DNA from: Pseudosulfitobacter pseudonitzschiae
GTDB taxonomy: Bacteria; Pseudomonadota; Alphaproteobacteria; Rhodobacterales; Rhodobacteraceae
NCBI RefSeq assembly: GCF_900129395.1
Contig: NZ_FQVP01000005.1
Span: 310,001 to 374,000 of the forward strand
DNA length: 64,000 bases
Direction: 5' to 3'
In this document: positions 45,704 to 64,000 of the stretch, one piece after another
Position numbering within the stretch: position 1 is the stretch's first letter
How the letters are laid out: the number at the start of each line of letters is the position of its first letter
The notes under the pieces: generated by a model
Database searches by the model: none
The model's input: only the letters and a program-made list of their open reading frames with translations
What the model was told of the DNA's origin: nothing
Program-made: the position numbers and the translations under genes

Positions 45704-46714
45704 TCAAGCCTCCTGCGGAATTTCGGTTGCGTAAATGTCGGTCCACAGCTCGTCGAGCGCAGGCTCCGGGCTGTTCTTGGCGAACTCGGCACTTTCGTTC
45801 ACCACGTCTTTGATCTTCTTGTCGATGGCTTTCAGGTCCTCTTCAGTCGCGTGCTCGCCCTGAAGCAGCAGCGTGCGCACGGCTTCGATCGGATCACGCT
45901 CGTCACGCATTTTCTGCACTTCCTCGCGGGTCCGGTATTTGGCCGGGTCCGACATCGAGTGGCCGCGATAGCGGTAGGTTTTGATTTCCAGGATATAGGG
46001 GCCCTTGCCCGAACGGGCGTGGGCCACGGCGGTTTCGCCGGCGGCCTTGACCGCAAGAACATCCATGCCGTCCACGGCTTCGCCCGGAATGCCGAACGCC
46101 TTGCCGCGTTCCCAGATTTCGGCGCTCGAGGTCGAGCGTTGTTGCGAGGTGCCCATCGCGTACTGGTTGTTTTCGATCACGAAGATGCAGGGCAACTGCC
46201 ACAGCGCGGCCATGTTGAAGGTTTCGTAAACCTGACCCTGGTTGGCCGCGCCATCGCCGAAATAGGTGAATGTGACGTTGTCATTACCCTTGTACTTGTC
46301 CGCAAAGGCCAGCCCCGCGCCCAGTGGCACGTTGGCGCCCACGATGCCGTGACCGCCGTAAAAGCGTTTGTCCTTGGAGAACATGTGCATCGAGCCGCCC
46401 TTGCCCTTGGAATAGCCGTCCTCGCGGCCGGTCAGCTCGGCCATGACGCCATTGGGGTCCATGCCACAGGCCAGCATGTGGCCGTGGTCGCGGTAGGTGG
46501 TGATGCGGCTGTCGCCTTCCTTGGCCGTGGCTTCCAGGCCAACGACAACGGCTTCTTGCCCGATATAAAGGTGACAAAAGCCGCCGATCAGACCCATGCC
46601 ATAAAGCTGTCCTGCCTTTTCTTCGAAACGGCGGATCAACAGCATGTCGTGATAATAGGCCTTCAGCTCGTCTGCCGAGACATTCGGCTTCTTGGTGGTC
46701 TTTCTCGCGGCCAT
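45704..46714 (-). CDS. pdhA: Pyruvate dehydrogenase E1 alpha
   Basis: 336 residues. ThDP-binding motif: YFGDGAANQGQVYETFNMAA followed by PCIFVIENNQYAMGTSQQRS. The regulatory-loop region is TYRYRGHSMSDPAKYRTREE. First gene of the operon pdhA-pdhB-pdhC, preceded by GGGAGGG as ribosome binding site and a 20-bp palindrome 21 bp upstream of the ATG that recurs upstream of the E3 gene. Confidence 0.97.
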   Translation of the reverse strand: MAARKTTKKPNVSADELKAYYHDMLLIRRFEEKAGQLYGMGLIGGFCHLYIGQEAVVVGLEATAKEGDSRITTYRDHGHMLACGMDPNGVMAELTGREDGYSKGKGGSMHMFSKDKRFYGGHGIVGANVPLGAGLAFADKYKGNDNVTFTYFGDGAANQGQVYETFNMAALWQLPCIFVIENNQYAMGTSQQRSTSSAEIWERGKAFGIPGEAVDGMDVLAVKAAGETAVAHARSGKGPYILEIKTYRYRGHSMSDPAKYRTREEVQKMRDERDPIEAVRTLLLQGEHATEEDLKAIDKKIKDVVNESAEFAKNSPEPALDELWTDIYATEIPQEA

Positions 46715-46735: not shown

Positions 46736-46755
46736 ATAGTTTAGCGTTAAACTAT
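46736..46755. promoter_or_regulatory. Shared PDH operator, copy 1 (upstream of pdhA)
   Basis: In pdhA orientation it reads ATAGTTTAACGCTAAACTAT: 8-bp perfect arms around ACGC. The proximal edge is 21 bp from the pdhA ATG, so it overlaps the expected transcription start and would suit a repressor. An almost identical copy (19 of 20 bases, same orientation) lies at 63603-63622 upstream of the E3 gene. Confidence 0.75.
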
Positions 46756-46920
46756 CTTTTATCGGATTCGGCGGAGTGATGCGAGAGGTTATATTCAAGC
46801 GTGGCAATTCGCGCCCGTATCGTCGGGGAGTGCCTTGTTTTCCGGCACTTGAGTGTCTGAACCTGCGTGCAGGCGGCGGATTTGCAGGGCGTCGGCGCAG
46901 ATCCGGGGGGCCAGACGTGC

Positions 46921-46947
46921 CACTGCCCCCGGCATACGGGGGCAGTG
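46921..46947. other. Strong hairpin between RTX gene end and pdhA promoter
   Basis: CACTGCCCCCG pairs perfectly with CGGGGGCAGTG around a 5-nt loop (11-bp stem). It lies about 80 nt beyond the RTX-gene stop on the minus strand. No T-run follows on either strand, so it is not a standard intrinsic terminator, but it may mark the RTX transcript end. Confidence 0.5.
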
Positions 46948-47024
46948 TGTCACTTGCTGTGCCGCGCCCTCGCGGTGGAACGGGATGAATTCCTCTGCGA
47001 CAGACCGGGGGCGCGGCGGCGGGA

Positions 47025-48389
47025 TTACAGAATGATATCCGACCCCAGCAAGGTGATTTCGCCGTCCAGGATCAGGTGGAAGTCGGCCAGGCCATCGCCG
47101 TCCACGTCACCGCTGACAAAGGTGCGCCCGTCCGAGATCACCGACCGCAATTCACCCGCGGTGCCGGTAAAGTCCGCGTCACCCAGGAAATTGAAGTTCT
47201 GGTCGCCGGCGGTGTTGATGTCCGCGTCGATGCCGCGCATCCGCAGGCGGTCCTCGCCTTGGGTAAAGTCGGTGATCACCTCGCGGGCGCCGCCGTTCCA
47301 CAGGTCCTCGATCTCGGTAAAGATGAACAGATCGGCACCTGCGCCCCCTGTCAGCGTGTCGTTGCCGTGGCCGCCATAGATCATGTCGTCGCCCGCACCG
47401 CCGTCGATGACATCGCGCCCCTTTCCGCCATCCAGTATGTCGTTGCCATCGCCGCCGTTGATCACGTCGTTGGCCCCTTCACCCCGCAGCAGATCGTCGC
47501 CGCTGCCGCCGGTCATCGTGTCGTTGCCCTGACCCGCGATCACGGTGCGGGCCTGCGTGGACCCGGTGCCGTCAAAGCTGTCGTTGCCGTTGCCCAGCCG
47601 CACAAATCCCGACAGGCTGCCGGTCGCGGTGACATCGTCATCGCCCGACCCGGTCAGGATATTGCCGTTGATCGCGGCCGTTTCGCCGACGTTCAGGACA
47701 TCATTGCCGCCTTTCATGTAAACACGTCCGTTGACCTGCGCCTGATCGGTCAGCTCCAGCGTGTTGGCTTGGTTGTTGAAGGTCAGGTCTGTGTTCACGG
47801 CAGAGGTGCCCATCAGATCCAGCCCGCCGCCGAACTTCAGCGATCCGGACAGGGTGCCGCCGTTCATGGTGACATCAGAGGAAATGGTGCCCGTGCCACG
47901 CAGCACGCCGGTGCCGGACAGGCTGACATCCGAGGTGGTGATATTGCCGTTCACCTCAAGCACACCCATCGACACCGTGGTGGGGCCCGCATGGCTGTTG
48001 GTGCCGTTCAGGATCAATGTGCCGGTGTCACCCAGAACCACGTCGCCTGCGGTGATATCCTGGTCGATGGTCAGGGTTGCGCCGTTGTTGACCGATATGA
48101 TCGATCCGGTTCCCAGCCTGAGGTCTTCGCCGGCATCGCCGTCGATCAGGATGTTGCCGCCTTCGACGACAATGTCACCGGCCCGTACGCCCAGTCCGCC
48201 GGTGTCGAAGGTAACCGTGTAATTGCCCGAACCGAAAACGGCATCGCTGCCGTTGGTGAACAGGGCAGGAAGCGACACGACGATCAACAGGTCGGGGTCA
48301 AGCACCTCGACCTCCCAGTTGAGCGTGGTGAAATCCCAGTCGCCGTTGTCATTGAAGAGATTAAGAGAGTTCCAGGTGAGCTGTGTCAT
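47025..48389 (-). CDS. RTX-type calcium-binding secreted protein
   Basis: 454 residues without an N-terminal signal peptide. Residues about 100-260 have repeated beta-strand units like autotransporter passenger repeats (TLILNGTNSHAGPTTVSMGV, TSDVSLSGTGVLRGTGTISS). Residues about 283-356 hold RTX nonapeptides (GGSGDDLLRGEGANDVING, GGDGNDILDGGKGRDVIDGG). The C-terminus (ADFHLILDGEITLLGSDIIL) matches the usual type I secretion signal. No ABC/MFP secretion genes are nearby. The gene lies between ftsB and pdhA, genes often adjacent in this group, so it may be an insertion. GAGG precedes the ATG; a CtrA site lies next to it. Confidence 0.85.
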   Translation of the reverse strand: MTQLTWNSLNLFNDNGDWDFTTLNWEVEVLDPDLLIVVSLPALFTNGSDAVFGSGNYTVTFDTGGLGVRAGDIVVEGGNILIDGDAGEDLRLGTGSIISVNNGATLTIDQDITAGDVVLGDTGTLILNGTNSHAGPTTVSMGVLEVNGNITTSDVSLSGTGVLRGTGTISSDVTMNGGTLSGSLKFGGGLDLMGTSAVNTDLTFNNQANTLELTDQAQVNGRVYMKGGNDVLNVGETAAINGNILTGSGDDDVTATGSLSGFVRLGNGNDSFDGTGSTQARTVIAGQGNDTMTGGSGDDLLRGEGANDVINGGDGNDILDGGKGRDVIDGGAGDDMIYGGHGNDTLTGGAGADLFIFTEIEDLWNGGAREVITDFTQGEDRLRMRGIDADINTAGDQNFNFLGDADFTGTAGELRSVISDGRTFVSGDVDGDGLADFHLILDGEITLLGSDIIL

Positions 48390-48400
48390 ACCGATACCTC

Positions 48401-48417
48401 GTTAAACAATGGTTAAC
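48401..48417. promoter_or_regulatory. CtrA full binding site upstream of the RTX gene
   Basis: TTAA-N7-TTAAC is exact (TTAA at 48402-48405, TTAAC at 48413-48417); the minus strand also contains TTAACCAT, the half-site known for Rhodobacterales CtrA. The whole element GTTAAACAATGGTTAAC is a near palindrome. It lies 11 bp upstream of the RTX ATG, next to the ribosome binding site, so binding there could repress, or the main promoter may start within the site. Confidence 0.6.
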
Positions 48418-48894
48418 TCTCCCTAAGGATGTATTCAGGACTGTGTCACGAATTTGGCAAAAGATTGCTACTGGCAAATTATTTTAGATTTAGCCCTTAT
48501 AAATATGATCATATCGCGCCCGTTCCGAGTTCTGGCCGCCATGTGGTTTCGAAGAAAAACAACCAAAAGTAGACTTGATATTTGAGTCCGATTCGGCCCT
48601 AAAGTCTTTGAATCCTAAGACTTTATCGCGCGCCGCATGGCCAGTGCGCTCCGGCGGGGATCAGAATGCACCCTCCGCGCCTGCGGAACATGGCAACTGG
48701 CAGGACAAAATACCCCGCAACCTCAGTCAGAGGGCGCAGTGTGCAGCAGTGGCAGGAGGAATGGCGAGAATCGGGACAGGCCAGCGCACAACTCTGCCAC
48801 ATTTGGCAGGGCGAGGCAGGTCGCGCGCGATTCGAACGTCGGAAAAATGTCAGGGAAAAATGTCGCGCGGGGGTCTTTGCCCGCCGCCGCGGCT
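48418..48894. other. A+T-rich intergenic region between RTX gene and ftsB-like gene
   Basis: About 480 bp without a gene. The first 180 bp are distinctly A+T rich (TTAGATTTAGCCCTTATAAA) and include a perfect 12-bp palindrome ATATGATCATAT at 48503-48514. On the minus strand TTGCCA is followed 17 nt later by TGAATA, a weak promoter candidate for the RTX gene. GGAAAAATGTC occurs twice 13 bp apart at 48841 and 48854. No RNA gene is evident. Confidence 0.4.
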
Positions 48895-49194
48895 TTAGCG
48901 GATCACGATCTCGTCGCTGCGGACCATGCCCAGAACGCGCCGTGCCTGTTCGTCCAGCAGGTCCAGGTCAAGAAAGTCGTCCGACAAGCGATAGGTCAGG
49001 TTTTCCATCCGCCGGACATCGGCGCGCACTTCGGCCAGCTGTGCGCTCAGGGCGCGGCTTTCGGCCTCGATCTGGGCGCGCTGGAACAGTCCGAAATCCC
49101 CCTGAACGGCGGCAAAGGTAAAGTATACGCACAGGGCAAAGGCCACGGCGAAAAAGAGGAATGTACCAAATGCGGGGCGCGCGATGCGGGTCAT
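48895..49194 (-). CDS. ftsB: Septum formation initiator, FtsB/DivIC family
   Basis: 99 residues. One N-terminal membrane helix (FGTFLFFAVAFALCVYFTFA) is followed by a coiled coil (RAQIEAESRALSAQLAEVRA, DVRRMENLTYRLSDDFLDLD) and LDEQARRVLGMVRSDEIVI, the typical family end. It is part of the FtsQLB cell-division complex. In many alphaproteobacteria it directly precedes pdhA; here an RTX gene lies between. Confidence 0.9.
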   Translation of the reverse strand: MTRIARPAFGTFLFFAVAFALCVYFTFAAVQGDFGLFQRAQIEAESRALSAQLAEVRADVRRMENLTYRLSDDFLDLDLLDEQARRVLGMVRSDEIVIR

Positions 49195-49393
49195 GACTGC
49201 TGCCTTCAGGTTTCGCCTCTTGGGTGGGCGATAGGATCGTTATGGCACAGATGATTCGCCAAGGGAATCCCTCGATTCGCTATGTGCGCACACAATCGGG
49301 TCAGGTGAATCCGGCGTGCAACACTGTGAAATGTGCCACCGCACCCCGGCGAGCAGGGCGGGGCGCGTGCGGCGATTGACCGGGTGCGGCTGC

Positions 49394-50584
<1,191 letters not shown>

Positions 50585-50716
50585 CGTTTTCGTCCCCTTG
50601 ATCCGATCCGTTGCGCGGTGTTTCGCGGCATTTCTCGTTCAGGTCAATGCAGCGGCTTGGCAAAAGCGGGTCTGCGCCTTAGGTATCCTTGCAATATCAA
50701 GACAGAGGAGCCGAAA

Positions 50717-51226
50717 ATGGCCGAGATCAAAGACCCGGAAAACACCATCCTGATGGAGCTGAAAGACGGCACCGTCGTTATCCAGCTGCTGCCCGACCTG
50801 GCGCCCAAGCACGTCGAGCGGATGAAAGAGCTGGCCCGTGCCGGTGAATATGACAACGTTGCCTTCCACCGCGTGATCGACGGCTTTATGGCCCAGACCG
50901 GCGACGTGCAGAACGGCGACATGGAAGACGGCTTTAACCTCCGTGCCGCTGGCACCGGCGGCTCGTCGCTGCCCGACCTGCCTGCCGAATTCTCCAAGGT
51001 GCCGCACGCGCGCGGCTCCATCGGTGCGGCCCGTTCGGCCAACCCCAACAGCGCCAACAGCCAGTTTTTCATCAACTTCAAGGACAATGATTTCCTGAAC
51101 GGTCAATACACCGTCTACGGTCAGGTCATTTCCGGCATGGAACATGTGGACGCGATCACCCGTGGCGAGCCGCCTGCGCAGCCCGACCGTATGATCAGCG
51201 TCAAGGTTGCCGCAGATGTTGCGTAA
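50717..51226 (+). CDS. Cytoplasmic cyclophilin-type peptidyl-prolyl isomerase
   Basis: 169 residues, no signal peptide. Cyclophilin signature: VAFHRVIDGFMAQTGDVQNG, ARSANPNSANSQFFINFKDN and LNGQYTVYGQVISGMEHVDA. The ATG at 50717 follows AGAGGAG. The end overlaps the next gene, a periplasmic paralogue, by 11 nt, so both come from one transcript. Confidence 0.95.
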   Translation: MAEIKDPENTILMELKDGTVVIQLLPDLAPKHVERMKELARAGEYDNVAFHRVIDGFMAQTGDVQNGDMEDGFNLRAAGTGGSSLPDLPAEFSKVPHARGSIGAARSANPNSANSQFFINFKDNDFLNGQYTVYGQVISGMEHVDAITRGEPPAQPDRMISVKVAADVA

Positions 51227-51767
51227 CTTTCTGATCCCGCTGGCCTTTGTGGCCAGCCCTGCGCTGGCCACCGGTCTGGCCATCGAGGTCGAGGGCGAAA
51301 ATGCCAAGGGCACGATCCAGATCGACCTGCTGGAAGACGTGGCGCCCGAGCATGTGGCCCGCATCACCGAACTGGCCGAGGCAGGCGCCTATGACGGCGT
51401 GGTGTTCCACCGCGTGATCGATGGCTTTATGGCGCAGACCGGTGATGTCCAGTTCGGCAAGTCCGATGGCGACACCTCTCGTGCGGGCATGGGCGGATCG
51501 GACAAACCCGACCTGCCGCAAGAGTTCTCTGATATCCCGTTCGAGCGCGGCGTGGTCGGCATGGCCCGTTCGCAAAGCGTGGACAGCGCCAACAGCCAGT
51601 TCTTTATCATGTTCACCGAGTATCCCTCGCTGAACGGTCAATACACGGTCGTGGGCCGCGTGACCGAAGGTCTGGACGTGCTGGACAGCCTGAAGCTGGG
51701 CGACCCGCGCACAGGCGCCATTGACGGGCAACAGGACGTGATGAAATCGGTGACCGTGACCGAGTGA
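51216..51767 (+). CDS. Periplasmic cyclophilin-type peptidyl-prolyl isomerase
   Basis: 183 residues. A signal peptide (MLRNFLIPLAFVASPALA) directs it to the periplasm. The catalytic part matches its upstream neighbour: VVFHRVIDGFMAQTGDVQFG, ARSQSVDSANSQFFIMFTEY and LNGQYTVVGRVTEGLDVLDS. The ATG at 51216 overlaps the upstream gene by 11 nt. A strong hairpin follows. Confidence 0.95.
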   Translation: MLRNFLIPLAFVASPALATGLAIEVEGENAKGTIQIDLLEDVAPEHVARITELAEAGAYDGVVFHRVIDGFMAQTGDVQFGKSDGDTSRAGMGGSDKPDLPQEFSDIPFERGVVGMARSQSVDSANSQFFIMFTEYPSLNGQYTVVGRVTEGLDVLDSLKLGDPRTGAIDGQQDVMKSVTVTE

Positions 51768-51787
51768 TCGGTTTTCAGGTTTCTTCG

Positions 51788-51826
51788 ACAGGCCCGCGCA
51801 GCGATCTGCGCGGGCCTGTTGCGTTT
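51788..51826 (+). terminator. Hairpin terminator after the cyclophilin pair
   Basis: ACAGGCCCGCGCAG pairs perfectly with CTGCGCGGGCCTGT (14-bp stem, loop CGAT), followed by TGCGTTT. The T-run is interrupted, but the stem is very strong and lies 20 nt after the stop. Confidence 0.75.
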
Positions 51827-51911
51827 GGGGCCATGCCGTGCGGTGCGGTATGGCTTTACCTTGGGCGCGACCTTTGTCACGGCGTTACATAGCGCGGGCA
51901 AAGGAGGATTC

Positions 51912-53099
51912 ATGTACAGCTTTGGTCAGTTTATGTACAGTTTCGCAAAGATCGTGCGGGGGCTGGGGCCTGCGATGCCCACAGCCCATCCGGCCGAGGC
52001 GTTGCGCGCCGGTGTCGGGGCCTGCGTCGGGCTGGGGGTGGTCGGGTTGTTCATCCTGTCACCGCTGGTCGATCTGCGGTTGGGCCTGTATCTGATCGCG
52101 CCATTCGGAGCCAGCGCCGTGCTGCTGTTTGCCGTGCCCAACGCGCCACTGGCACAGCCGTGGTCGGCGGTGGTGGGCAACACGGTGGCCGCGTTGATTG
52201 GTGTGGCTGTCTGCCTGTCGGTGCCCGACCCTGCGCTGCGCATTGCGCTGGCGGTGGGGCTGGCGATTGCGGCGATGATCCTGTGCCGTGCGGTGCACCC
52301 GCCCGCAGGCGCCGTGGCGATGACCGCTGCCATGAGCCCGGATGCCGTGGCCCATCTTGGCTATTGGTTCGCGCTGGCCCCTGTGGCCGTGGGCACGGCA
52401 GCGCTGGTGGTGCTGGCGATGATCTATGCGCGCCTGACCGGGCGGCGCTATCCCTTTCGACATTTTGAGGATCGCAACGCACAGGGCACGACCGACCCTG
52501 CGCCGATGCAGCGTCTGGGGTTGACCAGGGCCGAATTGACCGACCTGCTGGACCGTTATCGCCAGTCGTTCAACATGGGGGCCGAAGATCTTGCGCGCTT
52601 GATCGGTGCCGCAGAGTTGCAGGCGGCCAGTCACCGCACCGGACCATTGACCGCCGCCGACGTGATGTCGCGCGATCTGGTCACCGTCACCGCCGAAACG
52701 CCGCTGGGTCAGGTGGCCGATCTGTTCCGGCGGCACCGCTGCACATCCTTGCCGGTGGTCGGGGCAGAAGACAGGTTTCTGGGTTTGATCTTCCAGATGC
52801 ACCTGATCGACCGCGCCCGCGACGACGCACTGCGGCTGAACCGTGGCTTTGGCGCGGCGATGGCGCGGATGCTGGACCGCAGTCGTGACACACCCGCCCA
52901 AGCGCATGAGATCATGGGCGTTGCGGGGCCACGCGCGGTGCCCGAGACGCCGATCGCTGCCTTGCTGCCGATGATGGCCGAAGGCGCGGTGGACGCGGTT
53001 CCGGTGCTGGCGCGGGGCCGGTTGCAGGGCATCGTTACGCGTACAGACCTGATCGCGGCGCTGGCCAAGGTCAGCCTGCAACAGCCCGTGGCGGGCTAG
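51912..53099 (+). CDS. HPP-family membrane protein with CBS domain pair
   Basis: 395 residues. The N-terminal HPP domain has four or five membrane helices and the naming motif in CRAVHPPAGAVAMTAA; FGASAVLLFAVPNAPLAQPW is also typical. A linker (LTRAELTDLLDRYRQSFN) leads to two CBS motifs (DVMSRDLVTVTAETPLGQVA; DAVPVLARGRLQGIVTRTDL). HPP proteins have been linked to nitrite transport in plastids and cyanobacteria; the CBS pair may bind adenine nucleotides. The substrate here is unknown. AAGGAGG lies 4 nt upstream of the ATG. Confidence 0.9.
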   Translation: MYSFGQFMYSFAKIVRGLGPAMPTAHPAEALRAGVGACVGLGVVGLFILSPLVDLRLGLYLIAPFGASAVLLFAVPNAPLAQPWSAVVGNTVAALIGVAVCLSVPDPALRIALAVGLAIAAMILCRAVHPPAGAVAMTAAMSPDAVAHLGYWFALAPVAVGTAALVVLAMIYARLTGRRYPFRHFEDRNAQGTTDPAPMQRLGLTRAELTDLLDRYRQSFNMGAEDLARLIGAAELQAASHRTGPLTAADVMSRDLVTVTAETPLGQVADLFRRHRCTSLPVVGAEDRFLGLIFQMHLIDRARDDALRLNRGFGAAMARMLDRSRDTPAQAHEIMGVAGPRAVPETPIAALLPMMAEGAVDAVPVLARGRLQGIVTRTDLIAALAKVSLQQPVAG

Positions 53100-53456
53100 G
53101 CGCTCAGGTTGGCGCGGGTGAAGGTCTGTCCGGCTCTGTTATGCTGCGGGAAGCGGACCATCGCGCAGATCGCAGCGAAGGTCGGCTTCGAGCCCTTTCC
53201 GCATTCCCCCGCGCGGAACAAGGCCGAAGGCCGCCGCGCATCGCCGGGCCGTCCGCCGGCACGGCGATTTGGTTTCTGTTGTGCGTGACGGATCGCTAGG
53301 ATGTGCTTGGCTGCCATAAAGTGCCAGTCAGGCAGGTCTGATCGCCGCACCACGGCCCGACGATGCGCGGCTGAGTGAACAACCACACCCTCCCGCACAT
53401 CGGACCTTGAACCACATCGCGCCTAAGGTCCGCTTTGAAGCGTTTCGCATCTCCCA
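53100..53456. other. Intergenic region without recognisable genes
   Basis: About 357 bp between the HPP-CBS gene and the terminator of the bactofilin gene. No open frame resembles a protein, and I see no RNA gene. AAGGTCGGCTTCGAG (near 53179) and AAGGTCCGCTTTGAAG (near 53426) are similar, which hints at a decayed dispersed repeat, but this is not firm. Confidence 0.4.
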
Positions 53457-53494
53457 ACGAAAACGGGCGTCGCGGCAATGCCGGACGCCCGTTT
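53457..53494 (-). terminator. Intrinsic terminator of the M23 peptidase-bactofilin operon
   Basis: AAACGGGCGTC pairs with GACGCCCGTTT, with an inner CGGC/GCCG stem and one bulge. On the minus strand it ends in TTTTCG. It lies about 20 nt beyond the bactofilin stop. Confidence 0.85.
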
Positions 53495-53515
53495 CCCTAA
53501 TCTCGAACGCAAGCC

Positions 53516-54037
53516 TTAGCCTTGTGGCTGGCCTTGCGGTTTGGGCGCGGGGGCAGGGGCCGCCTGTTTCGCGCCGCCGGGGTTCAGCGGGTCGTCCTGA
53601 CGCTGCACGGACCCTTCGAAGTGCGCACCGCTTTCGATGGCGATGGTCTTGTGGATGATGTCGCCCTCGACCCGTGCGGTCGATGTCAGGCGCACCTTCA
53701 GGCCCCGCACGCGGCCGACGATGCGGCCGTTGATCACCACATCATCGGCGGTCACTTCGCCTTTGATCGTTGCGGTTTCGCCGATGGTCAGCAGGTGGGC
53801 GCGAATGTCGCCTTCCACGGTGCCCTCGACCTGGATGTCACCGGTTGTCTTCAGGTTGCCGGTGATGTGCAGATCGGACGACAGAACCGAGGCGGGCGGC
53901 TTTGCCTTGGGCGCGCTGGCCTTGAATTCGTTGGATTTCGGGGCCGCCGACGCCGGTTGGGCCGAAGCAGCAGGTGTGCTGGTTTTGGCCGCGTCGTCTT
54001 TGGGTCCGGGTTCGTTGATTTTGCTCTTAGAAAACAT
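53516..54037 (-). CDS. Bactofilin
   Basis: 173 residues. A disordered A/P/K-rich N-terminus is followed by the bactofilin beta-helix (LHITGNLKTTGDIQVEGTVE, GDIRAHLLTIGETATIKGEV, VINGRIVGRVRGLKVRLTS) and a proline/alanine-rich tail. Bactofilins polymerise without nucleotide at the inner membrane and place cell-wall enzymes. The ATG overlaps the end of the upstream M23 peptidase gene by 11 nt; such pairs act together in shape control. Confidence 0.92.
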   Translation of the reverse strand: MFSKSKINEPGPKDDAAKTSTPAASAQPASAAPKSNEFKASAPKAKPPASVLSSDLHITGNLKTTGDIQVEGTVEGDIRAHLLTIGETATIKGEVTADDVVINGRIVGRVRGLKVRLTSTARVEGDIIHKTIAIESGAHFEGSVQRQDDPLNPGGAKQAAPAPAPKPQGQPQG

Positions 54038-55358
54038 CGTTTGCAGCCTTGATATAGATCATGGGGTTTACAGCTTTGCCGCCAACGCGGACTTCGTAAT
54101 GCAGGTGCACGCCGGTCACCCGTCCAGAGGCTCCCATATCACCGATACGATCCCCGCGCGAGACCCTTTGGCCAACTTTCACACGAAGTTGCGACATATG
54201 GGCATAGCGCGTCTCGATGCCGAAATCATGCTGGATCTTCACCAGTCGGCCATAGCCGTTGGACCAGCCTGCATGGGTGACCACGCCGTCGGCAGTGGCA
54301 TAAAGGGGTGTGCCGGTGGGGGCGGCGAAATCAACGCCCTTGTGCATACGGCGGCCGCCCGTCTTGGGGTCGCGGCGATAGCCGAAGCTGGACGTGAAGC
54401 GAAAGGCGTTTTTCACCGGCAGCGCAAAGGGCGCTTTCTGCGCGGCGATGCGGTACATGTTCAACTGGTCCATCTGGTTCAACAGACGGTTGGCGCGCAG
54501 GGCATCGGCGCTGGGTTCTTCGCCGCGGGTCGAGAAGGACAGCGGCGTCAGCGGGCCACCTTGACCGGAATAGCCGCGGCGGACCTGTTCGATAATCTGT
54601 TTGGTGGGCATGCCAGCGGCGCGGAACATCTTGTCCAGCGGGGCGACGGAGATGGTCATCGCATCCTCAAGCTGGCGGAAAATCGCGTCGTTCTGGTCTT
54701 TCATCGTGGCGATCTGGTCGGACAGCTCGTCGGCGGCCAAAAGGGCGTCTTCGGCGTCGCGGGCGATCTGGTCACGTTCGGCTGCGGTTTCGGCCAGCGC
54801 GGTGGCGACAAAGTCCATCGGCGCACCAGCGCCGCCATTGTCCATCGCCATGCCGGTGTCGCCGTTGTCCAGGCGTTCGGTCAGGGCGGCGACTTTCTCG
54901 CGGGCCTCTTCACGGTCCTTCATCGTGCCGCGCAGGGTCGACTGGATCACTTCGATCCCGGTCTCCAGTTCACGGCGGCGCGTTTCGCTTTCCAACAGTT
55001 CCGATTGCATCACCGAAATCTGGGTCAGGGCGGCGTTGAACCGTTCCTGTGCGGCATGGGCTTCGGCGGCCCGGGCGTCGCGCTGTCCCGCCAGATCGTT
55101 CAGCCGGGCCTGATAGGTGCGCTGGTCGCGTTTGGCCTGTTCGCGGAAGTTGCCCGACCCGATGCTGTCCATCAGGATCACGGCGGTTGCGACAATGGTC
55201 CAGGCAATCAGCAGGGACGATCCGGTAAAGACCACAAGCTGTGTAACCGGACGCAGGCGTATGAAACGCGTGTCGCTGTCGGATTTGAGGAACACCCTAC
55301 GTTCCGGAAACCACCGCTCGAGGGCGGCATCGAATTTGATTGCAAGGCGTGTGCGCAA
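54027..55358 (-). CDS. M23-family peptidoglycan endopeptidase with coiled coil
   Basis: 443 residues from a TTG at 55358, chosen because AAGGA lies 8 nt upstream and RTRLAIKFDAALERWFPERR then gives the expected N-terminus; an ATG at 55445 has no such support. One membrane helix (TQLVVFTGSSLLIAWTIVAT), a long coiled coil (about 75-190), then the M23 domain with MHKGVDFAAPTGTPLYATAD and HLHYEVRVGGKAVNP (metal ligands H and HxH). It cuts peptidoglycan cross-links. Coupled to the bactofilin gene. Confidence 0.9.
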   Translation of the reverse strand: MRTRLAIKFDAALERWFPERRVFLKSDSDTRFIRLRPVTQLVVFTGSSLLIAWTIVATAVILMDSIGSGNFREQAKRDQRTYQARLNDLAGQRDARAAEAHAAQERFNAALTQISVMQSELLESETRRRELETGIEVIQSTLRGTMKDREEAREKVAALTERLDNGDTGMAMDNGGAGAPMDFVATALAETAAERDQIARDAEDALLAADELSDQIATMKDQNDAIFRQLEDAMTISVAPLDKMFRAAGMPTKQIIEQVRRGYSGQGGPLTPLSFSTRGEEPSADALRANRLLNQMDQLNMYRIAAQKAPFALPVKNAFRFTSSFGYRRDPKTGGRRMHKGVDFAAPTGTPLYATADGVVTHAGWSNGYGRLVKIQHDFGIETRYAHMSQLRVKVGQRVSRGDRIGDMGASGRVTGVHLHYEVRVGGKAVNPMIYIKAANDVF

Positions 55359-55557
55359 ACTGCCCGTCCTTTTCCCATCCCAAAAAAGGCGAAGTGTTCC
55401 CCAACACGGCCACCTTGTCGCTGTTGCATAAAGACCTCGGTGCAATCGGGCAACCGCTTTGGCCCTTGATCGGGGTTTTCCGGTAGATTCGGTGCCAAAT
55501 GGGCAGAAAACCGCTTAAATAATTCGACTTAGCGGAGAGGCCTTGGGTGCGATAACC

Positions 55558-56382
55558 TCAGGTTGAAACTGCCAGCGGCCAGTAAAAGTCGGGCGGGATA
55601 CCGGCCTCGGCGCGCTTTTCCTCGTTGAAGGGCGGCTTGAGCGCGCCGTGGAAATACTTTTGTACCAGTGTGTGAAACACCTCCTTGGGGTCGGCATTCT
55701 CGCGCCCGCAGAGGAAGTGAAACCATTTGGACCCGTATGCGACATGCGCCACTTCTTCGGCATAGATTGTCTCGAGCGCGGCCACGGCGCTGTCCGCTTT
55801 GGCCTGCTTGAAGATGCGGATCATGTTGGGGGTCACGTCCAGCCCGCGTGCCTCCAGCACCATCGGCACGACCGCCAGCCGGCCCATCAGATCCTCTGCG
55901 GTGTCCTCGGCGGCGCGCCACATGCCTGCGTGTGCGGGCAGGGCTCCGTAATGGCTGCCCATCTCTTCAAGACAATCGGCCATCAGGTTGAAATGTTTGG
56001 ATTCTTCGTCTGCCGCTTTGACCCAGTCGTCAAAGAAACCCATGGGCATGGGCACATGGGAAAACCGCGCGATGATGTCCCAGTGCAGGTCGACCGCGTT
56101 CAATTCGATGTGGGCGACGGCGTGCAACAGGGCGATGCGCCCCTCGGGGCTGCCGGGTTTGCGGTGGGGCACGTCGCGGGGCGCCAGCAGTTCGGGGCGC
56201 GCGGGGCGGGCGGGCTGCATCGGCGGGCTGGCGGTGCCCACTTCGGGCGTCTGACCCGCTGCGCGCGCGCCTTGCCACTGCGCGGCCAACTTGCGCGACA
56301 GCGCGGTTTTTTCACGGCCATCGCCACAGCGCAGCACGGCGTCGGCCATCTGGGCCAGCGGCATCATCGGGGCGTCGGTCAC
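55558..56382 (-). CDS. DUF455 ferritin-like protein
   Basis: 274 residues from a GTG at 56382 that overlaps the stop of the bcp-type gene as GTGA. Ferritin-like motifs: ALLHAVAHIELNAVDLHWDI, WVKAADEESKHFNLMADCLE and LETIYAEEVAHVAYGSKWFH supply conserved E and H residues for a dimetal site. The DUF455 family has no settled function; some members are fused to or near tRNA-modifying or oxidative enzymes. Coupling to a peroxiredoxin gene hints at an oxidative-stress role, as inference. Confidence 0.85.
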   Translation of the reverse strand: MTDAPMMPLAQMADAVLRCGDGREKTALSRKLAAQWQGARAAGQTPEVGTASPPMQPARPARPELLAPRDVPHRKPGSPEGRIALLHAVAHIELNAVDLHWDIIARFSHVPMPMGFFDDWVKAADEESKHFNLMADCLEEMGSHYGALPAHAGMWRAAEDTAEDLMGRLAVVPMVLEARGLDVTPNMIRIFKQAKADSAVAALETIYAEEVAHVAYGSKWFHFLCGRENADPKEVFHTLVQKYFHGALKPPFNEEKRAEAGIPPDFYWPLAVST

Positions 56383-56840
56383 AGGGCCTTCACCGCCTCC
56401 AGGACCTCCTCGGCGTGGCCGGGCACTTTGACCCGTGGCCAGATGCGGGCGATGGTGCCATCGGCGGCGATCAGCACCGTGGTGCGTTCGATCCCCAAAA
56501 AAGTCTTGCCATACATCTGTTTTTCCTTCCACACCCCGTAGTCTTCGCAGACCGTACCGTTTTCATCCGACAACAGCGGCACTGTCAGATCGTGTTTGGC
56601 GGTAAAATTGGCGTGTTTTTTCAGGCTGTCCTTGGAAATACCGTAGACCTGTGCGCCCGCATCGGCAAAGGCTTGCATATGCTCGGAAAAGGCAATGGAT
56701 TCCTTGGTGCAGCCCGGCGTATTGTCCTTGGGATAAAAGAACAGAACCACAGGGGTGCCACGCAAGTTGGACAGCGTGACCTCCGGCCCTTCGGTTTGCG
56801 GCAAGGTGAAATCGGGTGCGGTTGAAGCTACTTCTATCAT
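56379..56840 (-). CDS. bcp: Thiol peroxidase, Bcp/PrxQ-type peroxiredoxin
   Basis: 153 residues. The peroxidatic cysteine is C44 in YPKDNTPGCTKESIAF. A second cysteine, C98 (ENGTVCEDYGVW), lies outside the usual C+5 resolving position, which here is serine-like, so it may be a one-cysteine type or use C98. The ATG at 56840 follows AAGGA. It reduces hydrogen and organic peroxides. Divergent from the giant AsmA-like gene. Confidence 0.93.
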   Translation of the reverse strand: MIEVASTAPDFTLPQTEGPEVTLSNLRGTPVVLFFYPKDNTPGCTKESIAFSEHMQAFADAGAQVYGISKDSLKKHANFTAKHDLTVPLLSDENGTVCEDYGVWKEKQMYGKTFLGIERTTVLIAADGTIARIWPRVKVPGHAEEVLEAVKAL

Positions 56841-56921
56841 GACGGTCCTTGTCATACTGGCCCATCTGGGCATGCGCGAAACTGACTGTCATAGTAGCTT
56901 TGGAGCAGCAAGAATAAAGAG

Positions 56922-59900
56922 ATGACCGACACCAAGTCGCCAGAACACTCCGTGACCGACCTGCCAAAGGTCAAGGCCACGGGCCGCAAGCGTCGCATCG
57001 CCAAGCGTGTGGGGCTGGGCAGTCTTGTGTTGATGGCGCTGTTGGGTGTGGCCGCCGTGGTGCTGATCACGGTGCTGGTGGGCAAGCCGATCGCAGCCCC
57101 CGACTGGCTGGAACAGCGGATTGCGACGCGGGTGAATGACAACCTGCAAGGCGTGCAGCTGACCTTTGACGAGGCCGAGCTGGTCGTGAACAAGGGCTGG
57201 CGGCCGCGTGCGCGCATCCGCAACGTGACCCTGCGCACGGCGGCGGGTGACGAGATCGTCAAGTTTTCCGAACTGGAAGCCAGCCTTGCGATGAAGCCGT
57301 TGCTGTCGGGCGAGGTGGTGCCGAAGAAAATCGAACTGACGGGTGTTTTCGTCACCCTGCGGCGAGATGCCGAAGGACAGGTGTCGTTGTCGAGCGGTCA
57401 GGGCATCGGCGGCGGGGTGGCCCGCAACGTGTCCTTGCCACAGGTGGTGGTTTCGCTGGACGCAGCTTTTGAACAGCCGCAACTGAAGGCGCTGACCAAT
57501 GCGGACATTTACGGCGTCACCCTGCGCTATGAAGACGCACGTGCCGACCGTGCGTGGACGGCCGACGGGGGACGCTTCCGGTTGATCCGCACGGGCGAGG
57601 AACTGGCGATCTCTGCCGATCTGGCGCTGTTGTCGGGCGGCACGGGCGTTGCCACTGTCGAGGCAAACTATTCCAGCCGCATCGGCTCGGCCGCAGCCGA
57701 ATTCGGGGTCACCATGGAAGACGTGGCCGCAGCCGACATCGCGGCCCAGGGACCGGCGTTCGCATGGCTCGAAGCCCTGCGCGCGCCGATTTCAGGGGCC
57801 TTGCGTTCGGGCGTGCTGGCCAATGGCAAGTTGGCCCCGATCAGCGCGACATTGCGGATCGGGAAGGGCGTGCTGCAACCCAACAACGAAACCCGCCCGA
57901 TCCCCTTTCAGTCCGCAGGGACCTATTTCAACTATGACCCGGCCACGCGCCTTTTGCGTTTCGACGAAGTGACCGTCGACAGCAAATGGGTCACGGGGCG
58001 CGCCGAGGGTCAGGCGATGGTGGGTGGTCTTGAGGGCGAGGTCGGCCAGGTCGACACGCTGATCGGACAGTTTTCGGCCTCGGACCTGAAATTCAATCCG
58101 CGCGATCTTTATGCCGTGCCGGTGGTGCTGGACGGGGCCAACCTGGATTTCCGGCTGGAGTTGAACCCTTTTCGCGTGACGCTGGGGCAGATGCTGGTGT
58201 CGGACCAGGGGCAATGGCTTCGGGCGAACGGCAATATCACCGCCGAGCGCGAAGGCTGGCGGTTTGCCTTTGACGCGCAGGTCGACGAACTGGCCCCCGA
58301 ACGGCTGCTGGCGCTGTGGCCCGAAAAGCTGATCGTCAAGACCCGTGACTGGGTGTCCCAGAACCTGCTGTCAGGGCATCTGCGCGAGGTCGATCTGGCG
58401 CTGCGGGGCGCGCCGAACACGCCGATGGAAACCTATCTGAGCTTTGACTTTGCGGATGCAGACCTGCGTTTCATGAAGACGATGCCGCCTATTCAGGAGG
58501 CATCCGGTCACGCCAGCCTGTTGCGAAACCGTTTTGTCGCCTCGGTCGACCAGGGCTTTGTCAGCGCACCGCAGGGGGGACGCGTGGGCATGGCCGGATC
58601 GTCCTTCATCATTCCAGACGTGACGGTCAAGGACGGGGCACCGGCCATCGCCCGGCTGGAAACCACCAGCACCGTGACCGCGGCCCTGTCGTTGCTGGAT
58701 CAGGAGCCGCTGTTCGTGATGGACAAGGCCGGTCTGCCGGTGGGACTGGCAGACGGTCGGGTGACGCTGGACGGCACCATTGCCCTGCCGCTGCGCAAGG
58801 AACTGCAACCCGGTGAGGTCACCTATTCGGTCAGCGGCGCGCTTGCGGATGTGCGCACCGACGCGTTGGTGCCCAATGAGACCCTTGCTGCCAGTGCGCT
58901 CACGCTCAGTGCCGATAATGATGGCGTGCGAATTGCGGGGCAGGGCCGGTTGGGCAACGTGCCTTTTGACGTGGCCTGGGACCAGCCGCTGGGCGTCGAG
59001 GCCAAGGGCGGCAGCCAGGTGCGTGGCACGGTCGAAATCTCGCAGGCCACGCTGGATGAATTCAATATCACCCTGCCGCCGGGATCGGTGCGCGGCAAGG
59101 GCGTCGGCGAGATCGTGGTTGATCTGCCGCCCAAGGGCGGCACGCCGCGCATGGTGCTGACCTCGAACCTGCGTGGCCTCAGCATGCGACTGGCGCCGCT
59201 GGGCTGGTCCAAGGCCGCGGGCACGGCAGGATCGCTGCGCATCGAGGCCACATTGGGCGAACGCCCCGAGGTAACCGCCATCAGCCTGGACGCCGCGGGG
59301 CTGCAGGCCAGGGGCAGCGTGACGCTGGATGCCGCCGGCGCGCTGCAAAGGGCCAGTTTCTCGCAGGTGAAGGTCGGCAACTGGATGAATGCGCCCGTCG
59401 ACATCATCGGACGTGGCCGCAGCGCCGCACCGGAAATCCACGTGCGCGGGGGGACAATCGACCTGCGCACCGCCAATTTCGGTGCGGACAGCGCGGGCGG
59501 AAGTGGCCAGTCTACCGGACCGCTGGTTCTGTCGCTGGACCAGTTGCGGATCACCGACACGATTGCGCTGACGGGGATGCAGGGCACCTTTGGCACGGCC
59601 AACGGGCTGGATGGCAAGTTCACCGGCAAGATCAACGGCGGCACAGCGGTCGCGGGGCGCGTTGTGCCGCAGAACGGGCGCAGCGCGGTGCGGATCACCT
59701 CGCAGGATGCGGGCGGGGTCGTGGCCTCTGCCGGGATCATCCAGAACGCGCGGGGCGGTGACCTGAACCTGACCCTGTTGCCGGTGGGGCAGAACGGCGC
59801 CTTTGATGGCGAACTGACCATTCGCAACACACGGGTCAAGAACGCGCCCGCCATTGCCGATCTGCTGGCGGCCATTTCGATCGTCGGCCTTCTGGAACAG

Positions 59901-60374
59901 CTCAGCGGTGATGGCATCGTCTTTTCCGAGGTCGACGGATCGTTCCGGCTGACACCCAACCGCATGACCCTGACCAAGGCCAGCGCCACCGGCCCGTCGT
60001 TGGGCATTTCGATGGACGGCATCTACAATCTGAACGATTCCACGCTGGACATGCAGGGGGTGGTTTCACCGGTTTACCTGCTGAACGGGATCGGTGCGAT
60101 CTTTACCCGCAAGGGCGAAGGGCTGATCGGCTTCAACTATCAACTGACCGGTCCCTCGGCCAAACCCAAGGTCAGCGTGAACCCGCTTTCGGCGCTGACG
60201 CCGGGGCTGTTCCGCGAGATTTTCCGCCGCCCGCCGCCGCAGGTGCCGGACCTGGACAGTCCCGAAGTGCAAGACGGCGGCACAGTGCCCGAGGCATTCG
60301 CGCCGCCCGAGCAAAACGTCACACCGGCGCAGGAGCGGCGGCAACGCCTTGATAGCCCGAATTATGGGCGTTAA
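56922..60374 (+). CDS. Giant AsmA/YhdP-like envelope protein (DUF3971)
   Basis: 1150 residues. One N-terminal membrane helix ([20 protein letters not shown]) is followed by a long periplasmic beta-rich body: [40 protein letters not shown] and, near the end, the AsmA-like C-terminal part ([40 protein letters not shown]). Family members bridge inner and outer membranes and move phospholipids. The length and domain order suit this role. queA starts 10 nt after the stop. Confidence 0.88.
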
Positions 60375-60384
60375 GGGCGGGGTC

Positions 60385-61464
60385 ATGAAACTGACCGACT
60401 TTGATTTCGACCTGCCCGAGGGGCTGATCGCGACCCGCCCTGCGGTGCCGCGCACGTCGGCGCGCCTGTTGGTGGCGGATGCCGCGCAGATCCATGATGC
60501 GCGGGTGTCCGATCTGGGGTCGTGGCTGCGACCGGGTGACCGGCTGGTGCTGAACGACACACGCGTGATCCCTGCGCGCCTTTCGGGCCTGCGGGCAAGG
60601 ATGTCGGCGCAGGGCGCAACCGAGGCGCGGATCGAGGTGACCCTGCTGGAGCCGCGCGCGGATGGCACATGGTCGGCGATGGTCAAGCCGTTGAAAAAGC
60701 TGAAAGTCGGCGAGGTTGTCCAATTTTCCGAAGCGCTCTCCGCCACGTTGGAGGGGACTGCTGAGGGGCAGGGACATTTGCGGTTCAACCTGACGGGCGA
60801 CGATTTCGACGCGGCCCTGGCCGAGGCGGGGGCGATGCCGTTGCCACCCTATATCGCGGCCAAACGCCCGGCGGATGCGCAGGACAAACACGATTATCAA
60901 ACCGTCTGGGCACGCCATTCGGGGGCCGTGGCCGCCCCCACCGCATCGCTGCATTTCGACGAGGCATTGCTGGCCGAGCTGGCGGCGATGGGCGTGACCT
61001 TTACCCATGTCACCCTGCATGTGGGGGCAGGCACCTTTCTGCCGGTCAAGGTGGACGACGTGACCACCCACAAGATGCACGCCGAGTGGGGCCATGTCAG
61101 CGATGCCGCCGCCGCGGAAATCACAGCGACCAAGGCCGCGGGCGGTCGGGTGATACCCGTGGGCACCACCGCATTGCGCCTGATCGAAAGCGCGGCCCGC
61201 AACAGCGGCACCGTGCAGCCGTGGGAAGGTGAGACCGACATTTTCATCTATCCCGGCTTCCGCTTTCAGGTCGCCGACGGGCTGATGACCAATTTCCACC
61301 TGCCCAAATCGACACTGATGATGCTGGTGTCGGCCCTGATCGGTCAGGACCGCATCCGCGAAATTTATGCCCACGCCATCACGGAATCGTATAGATTCTT
61401 CAGCTATGGTGACGCATCGCTTTTGCTTCCCCACGGGGCAGGCGACCCAAACAGACCGCAATAA
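60385..61464 (+). CDS. queA: S-adenosylmethionine:tRNA ribosyltransferase-isomerase
   Basis: 359 residues. Motifs: [80 protein letters not shown] and [20 protein letters not shown]. It adds the epoxy-cyclopentane of queuosine to tRNA, using SAM. The ATG at 60385 follows GGGCGGGG and gives the family start. Confidence 0.97.
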
Positions 61465-61565
61465 GTCGTTTTCATCCCTGACCGCACCGCGCATGGTGTG
61501 GGACAGGGGGAAGTCATTCCCTACCGCAGCACCAGCCACACACGCGACACATATCGGAGCGCAAA

Positions 61566-62843
61566 ATGTTTTCAGTTCTATCCAGTGCCTGGGCCTTGCT
61601 GTTCGGTATGGGGCTTTTGATGGTTGGCAACGGGATGCAGGGCACATTGCTTGGCATTCGCGGCAACATCGAAGGGTTTTCCACGCTGGAGATGTCGATT
61701 GTGATGTCGGCCTATTTCGTGGGGTTTCTGGGGGGCAGCCGGATGGCGCCCAATATGATCCGCCGCGTCGGTCACGTGCGGGTGTTTGCTGCGCTGGCCT
61801 CGTTGATCTCGGCGGTGATGATCCTGTATCCGACCTTTGCCGAACCCTGGGCGTGGACGCTGGGGCGCGTTGTGATCGGCTTTTGTTTCTCGGCGGTCTA
61901 TGTGACGGCGGAAAGCTGGCTGAACAATGCGGCCACCAACGAGAACCGCGGTCAGGCGCTGTCGCTTTACATGATCGTGCAGACGCTGGGCATTGTCGCG
62001 TCGCAAGCCTTGTTGGTGACGGCGGACCCATCCGGTTACGTATTGTTCGTGATCCCCTCGGTGCTGGTCAGCCTGGCGGTCACGCCGATCCTGCTGTCGA
62101 TCAGCCCGACACCGGCCTTTGACACCACCAAACCGATGTCGCTGCGTGCGCTGGTCAAATTCTCGCCGCTGGGCTGCGTCGGCATGTTCCTGCTGGGCGG
62201 CGTGTTCTCTGCCCAATTCGGCATGGCGTCGGTTTACGGGGCGCAGGCGGGGCTGAGCATTGCGCAGATCTCGACCTTTGTGGCGATGTTCTTTGTCGGG
62301 GCTGTGATCCTGCAATACCCGATCGGATGGATTTCCGACCGGATGGACCGGCGCCTGTTGATCGTCGCGGTCAGTGCCATCGGCGGTGCCGGTTCGATCC
62401 TGGGCATGCTGATGGGCCACAACTTTACCATCCTGCTGGTTTCGGCCTTTTTCGTGGGCGGGATGTCCAACCCTTTGTATTCGCTTCTGATTGCGCACAC
62501 GAACGACTTTCTGCAACCCGAAGACATGGCCGCCGCGTCGGGCGGGATGCTGTTTTTGAACGGTCTTGGCGCAGTGGCGGGGCCGCTGATCACCGGTTGG
62601 CTGATGGACAAGGTCGGGCCGGGGGGCTTTTATCTGTTCACCGCCGTGCTCTTTGCCGCCCTCGTGGTCTATGCCATCTACCGCTCGACCCAGCGCGCCG
62701 CCATTCCGGTGGAAGAGACAGGGTCGTTCGTGGCCATGTCCCCGGCGGGCACCACGGTCGTCGGCATGGAGATCGCGCAGGAATGGGCCATCGAATCCGC
62801 CGAAGCCGCGCAGGATGACTCCGACGGCACGGAAGCGGCTTGA
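61566..62843 (+). CDS. MFS transporter (YcaD-like)
   Basis: 425 residues with twelve membrane helices and a cytosolic tail of about 50 residues. MFS loop-type motifs appear in GGSRMAPNMIRRVGHVRVFA (after helix 2) and YPIGWISDRMDRRLLIVAVS (after helix 8). VYVTAESWLNNAATNENRGQ is typical of the YcaD-like group. The substrate is unknown. GGAGCG precedes the ATG. Confidence 0.88.
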   Translation: MFSVLSSAWALLFGMGLLMVGNGMQGTLLGIRGNIEGFSTLEMSIVMSAYFVGFLGGSRMAPNMIRRVGHVRVFAALASLISAVMILYPTFAEPWAWTLGRVVIGFCFSAVYVTAESWLNNAATNENRGQALSLYMIVQTLGIVASQALLVTADPSGYVLFVIPSVLVSLAVTPILLSISPTPAFDTTKPMSLRALVKFSPLGCVGMFLLGGVFSAQFGMASVYGAQAGLSIAQISTFVAMFFVGAVILQYPIGWISDRMDRRLLIVAVSAIGGAGSILGMLMGHNFTILLVSAFFVGGMSNPLYSLLIAHTNDFLQPEDMAAASGGMLFLNGLGAVAGPLITGWLMDKVGPGGFYLFTAVLFAALVVYAIYRSTQRAAIPVEETGSFVAMSPAGTTVVGMEIAQEWAIESAEAAQDDSDGTEAA

Positions 62844-62959
62844 TGCTCATGAAACCGGCATCGCCGGATTTATGTCGCCACTGTTGCATTTCGTGAATTG
62901 AACCATTTTTACAAAACTTTAACAGTGCAGGGGCAGAGCAGGCGCAAACGGAGTAACCC

Positions 62960-63556
62960 ATGGCCCAGCAAACCGAAGTGACCGCGGATGACGTTCTGAA
63001 ATTCTGGCTGGACGACTGTACGCCAGCGGATTGGTACAAGGCCGAAGATGCCTTTGACGACAAGATCCGTGCGCAGTTCGGGGATGCCTGGGAGAACCTG
63101 TGCGACGGTCATTATTCGCTTTGGCTGACCTATCCCAGCGGTGCGCTGGCCTATATCATTCTGGCGGACCAGTTTTCGCGCAACATGTTCCGCGGAGAGG
63201 GCAAGGCCTTTGCCAGCGACCGCATTGCCTTGGCTGCCGCCAAATCCGCCATCGACAAGGGGTGGGACCTGCGCATCGATCCGCCAGCGCGGCAGTTTTT
63301 TTACATGCCGCTGATGCATTCGGAAAACCTGTGCGATCAGGAACGCTGTGTGCGGCTGATGTGTGAACGTATGAACGATGGCGGCAACAATCTGCTGCAT
63401 GCACGGGCGCATCGTGAAGTGATCCGCAAATTTGGCCGCTTTCCCTATCGCAACGATGCATTGGGCCGCAGTTCGACAACGCTGGAACAAAGCTATGTCG
63501 AGGACGGCGGTTATCGGACCACGGTGGACGCGCTGGAGCAGACCGAAGCGGCCTGA
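62960..63556 (+). CDS. DUF924 family protein
   Basis: 198 residues with the DUF924 pattern: DVLKFWLDDCTPADWYKAED, GALAYIILADQFSRNMFRGE, RQFFYMPLMHSENLCDQERC and HREVIRKFGRFPYRNDALGR. The family is all-helical, TPR-like, and uncharacterised. The ATG at 62960 follows CGGAG. It lies upstream of the E3 gene on the same strand but is separated by the palindromic operator. Confidence 0.9.
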   Translation: MAQQTEVTADDVLKFWLDDCTPADWYKAEDAFDDKIRAQFGDAWENLCDGHYSLWLTYPSGALAYIILADQFSRNMFRGEGKAFASDRIALAAAKSAIDKGWDLRIDPPARQFFYMPLMHSENLCDQERCVRLMCERMNDGGNNLLHARAHREVIRKFGRFPYRNDALGRSSTTLEQSYVEDGGYRTTVDALEQTEAA

Positions 63557-63602
63557 CAACGTTTTGTCGTCCCGAAACCTTGCGGTTGTGACGAAGCGAG
63601 AT

Positions 63603-63622
63603 ATGGTTTAACGCTAAACTAT
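63603..63622. promoter_or_regulatory. Shared PDH operator, copy 2 (upstream of the E3 gene)
   Basis: ATGGTTTAACGCTAAACTAT differs from the pdhA copy at one base and has the same orientation to its gene. The symmetry extends to 10-bp arms (63601-63624) with one mismatch. Its proximal edge is 29 bp from the E3 start codon. Confidence 0.75.
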
Positions 63623-63651: not shown

Positions 63652-64000
63652 ATGGCCGAGACTTCCTTTGATCTGATCGTGATTGGCGCAGGCCCCGGCG
63701 GCTATGTCGCTGCGATCCGTGGCGCACAGTTGGGCATGAAAGTGGCCATCGTCGAACGTGAAAACCTGGGCGGCATCTGTCTGAACTGGGGCTGTATCCC
63801 GACCAAGGCGTTGCTGCGCACGTCCGAGGTGTTCCACCTGATGCACCGCGCCAAGGAATTCGGGCTGAAGGCCGAGAACGTCGATTTCGATCTGCCCGCC
63901 GTGGTCAAACGCTCGCGCCAGGTGGCGGGGCAGTTGTCGGGCGGCATTGGCCACCTGATGAAAAAGAACAAGATCACCGTGATCATGGGGGCCGCGACGC
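63652..64000 (+). CDS. lpdA: Dihydrolipoyl dehydrogenase (E3), 5' part only
   Basis: The first 116 codons are in the window. The FAD-binding motif is VIGAGPGGYVAAIRGAQLG (from residue 10), and the redox-active disulfide is C43/C48 in GGICLNWGCIPTKALLRTSE. It re-oxidises the lipoyl groups of the PDH and related complexes, making NADH. GAGGA precedes the ATG at 63652. The shared palindrome suggests it is the E3 of the pyruvate dehydrogenase complex encoded at 42965-46714. Confidence 0.96.
   Translation, partial: MAETSFDLIVIGAGPGGYVAAIRGAQLGMKVAIVERENLGGICLNWGCIPTKALLRTSEVFHLMHRAKEFGLKAENVDFDLPAVVKRSRQVAGQLSGGIGHLMKKNKITVIMGAAT

Follow-up and report, generated by a model that had tools for sequence, protein, structure and literature searches.

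The available part of one report (PMC5343134) describes PdhR, a GntR-type protein of Enterobacterales and Shewanella, as the regulator of the pyruvate dehydrogenase (PDH) operon, with a regulon that reaches other central carbon genes in some lineages. CceR, a LacI-type protein, commands a broad glycolysis and gluconeogenesis regulon with 6-phosphogluconate as its signal, as far as the accessible text goes (PMC5507952), and MaeB is lower in a cceR deletion of Paracoccus denitrificans in the accessible portion of a further report (PMC11323563). Here we analyze a 64,000-nucleotide stretch of the Pseudosulfitobacter pseudonitzschiae genome (contig NZ_FQVP01000005.1, positions 310,001 to 374,000; "the window"), in which nearly the same 20-base palindrome precedes both pdhA and lpd, genes for the E1 alpha and E3 components of PDH. 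Judged from sequence comparisons, these palindromes are most likely sites of a MarR-family protein and are held in common with the malic enzyme gene maeB. The candidate is like PdhR in being a proposed regulator of the PDH operon, and differs in protein family (MarR, PF12802), in operator (GTTYARYRYTRAAC), and in having lpd and malic enzyme as co-targets. CceR of Rhodobacter and Paracoccus is a central-carbon regulator of the same order that, on those partial sources, also affects malic enzyme, but it is a LacI protein, not a MarR protein; the comparison concerns regulatory role and protein family. MarR-family autorepressors such as HpaR, SlyA, and MarR have a palindromic operator over the promoter, and the candidate shares with them a winged-helix domain, its putative operator being a palindrome that overlaps the presumed promoter, whereas its presumed targets belong to core metabolism. 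Rhodobacterales are major marine carbon consumers, and the literature matches listed contain no report of PDH control by a MarR protein in this order, nor of a regulator that sets its pyruvate/malate to acetyl-CoA flux through these genes jointly. A MarR regulator is a known kind of protein; the role at PDH, lpd, and maeB has no earlier report among those matches.

The palindromes had been paired in a preliminary description of the window, and the pair is borne out in position and in sequence, with 19 of 20 bases identical. Both have the same orientation to their genes, with 21 bases to the ATG of pdhA and 29 to that of lpd. The elements are as follows:

42965..44305, minus strand: pdhC, E2 dihydrolipoamide acetyltransferase (TIGR01349 above cut-off)
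44318..45700, minus strand: pdhB, PDH E1 beta with an N-terminal lipoyl domain (NF008854 above cut-off)
45704..46714, minus strand: pdhA, PDH E1 alpha (TIGR03182 above cut-off)
46736..46755, minus strand: putative operator palindrome before pdhA, ATAGTTTAACGCTAAACTAT in the pdhA sense
46758..46763, minus strand: GATAAA, possible pdhA -10, directly upstream of the operator (assigned by eye; blocks conserved in relatives)
46780-46785, minus strand: CTCGCA, possible pdhA -35 (assigned by eye; blocks conserved in relatives)
63586..63614, plus strand: possible lpd core promoter, TTGTGA (63586-63591), 17 bp, TAACGC (63609-63614), assigned by eye
63603..63622, plus strand: putative operator palindrome before lpd, ATGGTTTAACGCTAAACTAT
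63652..64000, plus strand: lpd (E3), running beyond the window, 464 aa in full (L017:5653-7044; TIGR01350 above cut-off)

As the preliminary description held, the window has no further copy: at up to three mismatches it yields these two palindromes, against 0.05 expected, although 1 of 100 shuffled windows likewise gave two. Nor does a regulator gene adjoin either one, none being recognized in a Pfam scan of ten reading frames.

The rest of the genome (G000, 4.95 Mb) holds a third copy, exact across the 18-base core, before maeB (G000:C22:468635-468652). Read in gene sense, the pdhA, lpd, and maeB copies all have T(A/G)GTTTAACGCTAAACTA. They are the only three matches at up to one mismatch, against one for the reversed control pattern. 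At up to three mismatches there are 15 places versus 73 for the control, so the weaker matches carry no weight; we took them (1 at two mismatches, 11 at three) as chance. The maeB product, 757 aa long, matches domains of malic enzyme and of phosphotransacetylase (PF00390, PF03949, PF01515). Its best NCBIfam match is NADP-dependent malic enzyme, under the model cut-off, and maeB is our own label. A cupin-domain gene (L016:9793-10884) is divergent from maeB, with a homologue beside maeB in several, not all, relatives.

The site is conserved in the family. The exact core TAGTTTANNNNTAAACTA occurs in 185 of 394 family genomes, at most three times per genome, and the reversed control in 7 of 394. 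With one mismatch allowed, the site occurs in 66 of 90 family genomes and the control in 15 of 90; outside the family the order is turned around (12 of 57 genomes versus 24 of 57). Among 68 classified copies, a nonrandom set of loci selected by the search tool or by ourselves, 64 precede pdhA (33), maeB (21), or lpd (10). One of the four found elsewhere stands about 180 bases before aceE, which encodes the nonhomologous, homodimeric PDH E1, and can be set beside the 64 as a 65th. Copies in this genome and its relatives are thus few and nearly all before pdhA, maeB, and lpd; widespread off-promoter copies are absent, and conservation before pdhA and E3 genes is present. The preliminary description had inferred a dedicated regulator of E1, E2, and E3. 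Shared control of pdhABC and lpd is well supported, both by this conservation and by the candidate regulator described below; dedication to PDH did not survive, maeB being an equally recurrent target, and the predicted regulon extends past PDH to malic enzyme.

Paracoccus denitrificans has TAGTTTAACGCTGAACTA before pdhA, and the 82 sites within three mismatches of the core give the consensus TAGTTTAAYRYTAAACTA, with a pyrimidine-purine step at the central dinucleotide in 73. Position 8 is A in 93% of these sites, against just 30% with T at position 11, its mirror. The site is thus polar relative to the gene, which would fit a second role as part of the promoter. The operator before aceE, at L084:2096 in G061, has one mismatch, and that genome has pdhA with a one-mismatch site as well. 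In the small genome G152, an exact operator lies between a gene for a PLP-dependent enzyme and an oppositely oriented gene (L091:4773, the same as L066:1501), a possible additional target in that genome. Exact palindromes at L075:2520 (G037) and L035:1501 (G033) are not before pdhA, lpd, or maeB.

Co-occurrence, the route to the regulator that the preliminary description had suggested, led to a MarR protein. LacI, TetR, and MarR families were screened. LacI was rejected because no LacI protein of G000 has an orthologue in four site-bearing genomes, and TetR was rejected as well, there being none at E up to 0.001 in G234, which is 91% complete and has the pdhA site. One MarR protein is found in all four small site-bearing genomes (G198, G226, G234, and G343), with 44-52% identity to the first alignment row. 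In P. pseudonitzschiae its gene is on contig C15 (G000:C15, complement of 117776-118219; L250:5277-5720, minus strand). The product carries a MarR winged-helix domain (PF12802, 40.5 bits against a cut-off of 27; PF01047, 31.6 against 24.6) and, begun at an ATG within a 189-aa frame, a start aligned with the orthologues, has 147 aa, which fits a single-domain MarR protein (~140-160 aa). No NCBIfam subfamily model reaches its cut-off, and the nearest solved chains are distant (best E 4e-6). The gene neighbors are a carbon-nitrogen hydrolase-like frame and ubiG (names by eye), with no Acg gene alongside. In the phylogeny, 39 orthologue rows (38 different genes) form a single clade with support of 100/100 and a long stem relative to 28 others. 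OhrR-like redox-sensing MarR proteins have a conserved sensing cysteine; 37 of the 39 rows lack cysteine, so thiol sensing by the candidate is unlikely. The site had been described as unlike that of E. coli PdhR, and the co-occurring candidate is in keeping with this, being of MarR type and not GntR type, within a screen of the LacI, TetR, and MarR families.

To relate the gene to the sites, a profile built from the G198, G226, G234, and G343 proteins was run over the 394 family genomes. In genomes with completeness of 90% or more and contamination of 5% or less, the exact site is present in 162 of 310 with a MarR orthologue (E below 1e-45, a threshold chosen after the E-values were seen) versus 1 of 37 without (Fisher 4e-10, uncorrected for shared ancestry). 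The counts were read by hand, with 24 no-match genomes inferred from gaps in the match table, and G013, G088, G187, G209, G256, G269, G288, G358, and G408, which have weaker matches only, were counted as lacking. In G209 the MarR gene was later seen cut by a contig end beside ubiG; this genome is 73% complete and outside the 162/310 table. The association extends to the 24 family genomes with no match at up to one mismatch, 13 with the orthologue and 11 without. Eighteen have pdhA, and a diverged palindrome is kept before it in 12 and not in 6; the orthologue is present in all 12 of the former and in none of the latter, two of which (G013 and G088) have weaker homologues. Across pdhA, lpd, and maeB promoters of this set, a diverged operator within two mismatches occurs in 25 of 38 with the MarR gene versus 0 of 23 without: 12/12 versus 0/6 for pdhA, 6/13 versus 0/6 for lpd, and 7/13 versus 0/11 for maeB, where the protein taken for G059 has just 46% identity and could be a paralogue. 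Of random 165-bp stretches drawn from these loci, ~1.8% come equally close to the consensus. On this evidence and that of the homologue operons below, we consider it very probable that a MarR-family repressor, encoded at G000:C15, uses the palindrome as its operator and acts on pdhABC, lpd, and maeB.

Several observations weigh against this assignment. Among well-assembled genomes with the orthologue, 148 of 310 have no exact site; their sites may have diverged, as in 13 examined genomes, or been lost. Conversely, G358, which is 99% complete, carries two exact sites although its MarR matches are just two weak ones, the reading frame of one being broken by a stop, and exact sites also occur in five genomes of less than 80% completeness where MarR gives no match. 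G013 lacks both the orthologue and a pdhA site, yet has a paralogue of the same helix class, so helix class alone does not bring PDH sites. In the 13 genomes with the MarR gene and no match at up to one mismatch, lpd and maeB are often without a site. No operator lies near the MarR gene itself in the five family loci scanned (L250 and L255-L258). The screen took in only the LacI, TetR, and MarR regulator families, the family-wide MarR profile search scored at most nine candidates per genome, the loose consensus behind the diverged-operator counts derives partly from sequences then counted with it, and the Fisher tests ignore shared ancestry.

Homologues outside the PDH setting connect protein and motif independently of these genes. 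In three other families (G092, G098, and G123), a MarR homologue lies behind a gene for an Acg-type oxidoreductase in one operon; the Acg assignment is by NF047509 above cut-off for G098 and G092 and by BLAST for G123. This FMN-binding oxidoreductase family thus shares an operon with MarR homologues there, whereas the PDH-linked gene of G000 stands without it. Each of the three promoters carries the palindrome twice, at a spacing of 21-23 bases, and a paralogue operon in G013 is likewise preceded by two in tandem. At L251 the first of the tandem palindromes occupies the spacer of TTGACA-N17-TATATA. When genome_contigs, described as covering 84,980 species, was scanned for a pair of motifs separated by 7 bases, 21 loci emerged. 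Eight are beside this type of MarR gene (one, L264, being the G092 contig again), three have Acg nearby but end before the following gene can be seen, and 10 have neither (about seven of them simple repeats by eye). By title, the linked loci include bins of SAR86 and of K189A and a single one of Pseudanabaena, besides further alphaproteobacterial groups. In that cyanobacterial bin an Acg-MarR pair has class A tandem sites upstream (L281:43-2092), which would reflect transfer or contamination. In L267 and L277 (K189A clade, SAR86 bins), class A tandem sites precede an Acg gene that is truncated where the locus ends.

Recognition helix and operator change together. In paralogues of some family members and of G140, the class A helix TKGA(M/I)T(N/Y) is replaced by a class B helix, (P/A)(K/N)T(S/T)(M/L)(S/T)H, and the promoters of these paralogues carry the operator GTRCGATATCGYAC, usually twice. 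The A operator is found in 11 of 11 class A operons, 7 of which were retrieved by searching for that operator and 4 by a protein profile, and two of these 4 (G092 and G098) had earlier matched the site pattern too; L263 and L271 (TKGAMTYT), scored "?" by the script, were counted as class A by hand. Class B operons with Acg have the B operator in 15 of 16 (G086 is ambiguous), its consensus being derived from the same promoters it describes. Outside these counts are L302 (another type), L303 (G358; class B helix, no Acg, no operator), and L259, a weak G088 match with no operator and its helix unread. The PDH-linked MarR protein of G000 has TRGAMTNT, a class A helix that agrees with its operators. 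Class B is, from this covariation, a predicted second DNA specificity within the same MarR group. Its operators are seen in the promoters of L254:3380-3500, L261, and L288-L301, mostly in tandem, before Acg-MarR operons. A somewhat favored scenario is that an Acg-operon autorepressor was captured once, in a Rhodobacterales ancestor, as an acetyl-CoA gatekeeper, and that a paralogue stayed with the original Acg-type flavin oxidoreductase operon in some members, its switched helix and operator (GTTYARYRYTRAAC to GTRCGATATCGYAC) insulating the circuits. If true, this would be a natural MarR specificity switch readable from sequence alone, with two circuits insulated; the paired helix and operator change in a sister clade offers an evolutionary series for how MarR DNA specificity changes.

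The palindrome overlaps the presumed promoter at pdhA, lpd, and maeB, with all boxes assigned by eye. At lpd and maeB a TTG element and a 17-base spacer lead to a putative -10 inside the operator (TAACGC at lpd), and at pdhA the operator begins directly behind the -10-like block and would cover the start point. Because the operators overlap the presumed core promoter, repression is likely, and the candidate probably represses acetyl-CoA production in Rhodobacterales. In the proposed mechanism, a MarR dimer would bind GTTYARYRYTRAAC with TA flanks where -10 and +1 lie at pdhABC, lpd, and maeB, holding down the malate to pyruvate to acetyl-CoA route. Since malic enzyme, PDH, and E3 together make up this route, the repressor could close it when acetyl-CoA has another source. 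Release from the operator would be triggered by a small molecule, with pyruvate or a related 2-oxo acid the likeliest; pyruvate itself is a tentative suggestion modeled on PdhR. Direct binding in P. pseudonitzschiae is a prediction of this scheme, as are the promoter boxes, repression over activation, and the effector. The outcome is a candidate regulator gene, its putative operator, and three presumed targets for control of acetyl-CoA supply.

The reading nearest to this one is that the MarR protein binds the palindrome but activates, or does both, at pdhA. Some MarR proteins act as activators, and at pdhA the palindrome directly follows a -10-like box, with a conserved CTCGC block further upstream. 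All three targets have their sites on the presumed -10 or +1, and the homologue operons have theirs in the -35/-10 spacer (boxes again by eye); this is the geometry of a repressor, which leaves activation unlikely. That a LacI-type central-carbon regulator such as CceR binds the sites is quite improbable. The CG or other pyrimidine-purine center of 73 of the 82 sites would suit such a protein, as would the lower MaeB of the Paracoccus denitrificans cceR deletion in the available part of PMC11323563. However, the four LacI proteins of G000, among which CceR was not singled out, are without an orthologue at the LacI loci of G198, G234, G343, and G152, all of which carry sites (best identity 29% over at least 280 residues), the presence and absence of sites track the MarR gene, and the motif stands before MarR operons in other families. 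Given the MaeB effect, from that partial source, maeB probably has two inputs, the MarR candidate and CceR.

An RNA hairpin in the 5' leader would explain a palindrome a median of 26 bases from the start codon whose halves can pair, and at one pair, in gene sense, T-G (a wobble that still pairs) outnumbers C-A by 8/82 to 3/82. We regard it as highly improbable: the first tandem copy, placed between the presumed -35 and -10, would go untranscribed, the sequence itself is conserved, and the palindrome tracks a DNA-binding protein. The one shuffled window in 100 that also held two matches is what speaks for a chance or repeat-derived likeness of the two sites. Counts at zero to one mismatch far above controls, the same genes downstream in relatives, and conservation across the family refute that idea, and its probability is negligible. 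A minor observation concerns the region upstream of pdhA, where a gene on the same strand (47025-48389 in the window) encodes an RTX-repeat protein with a passenger-associated repeat.

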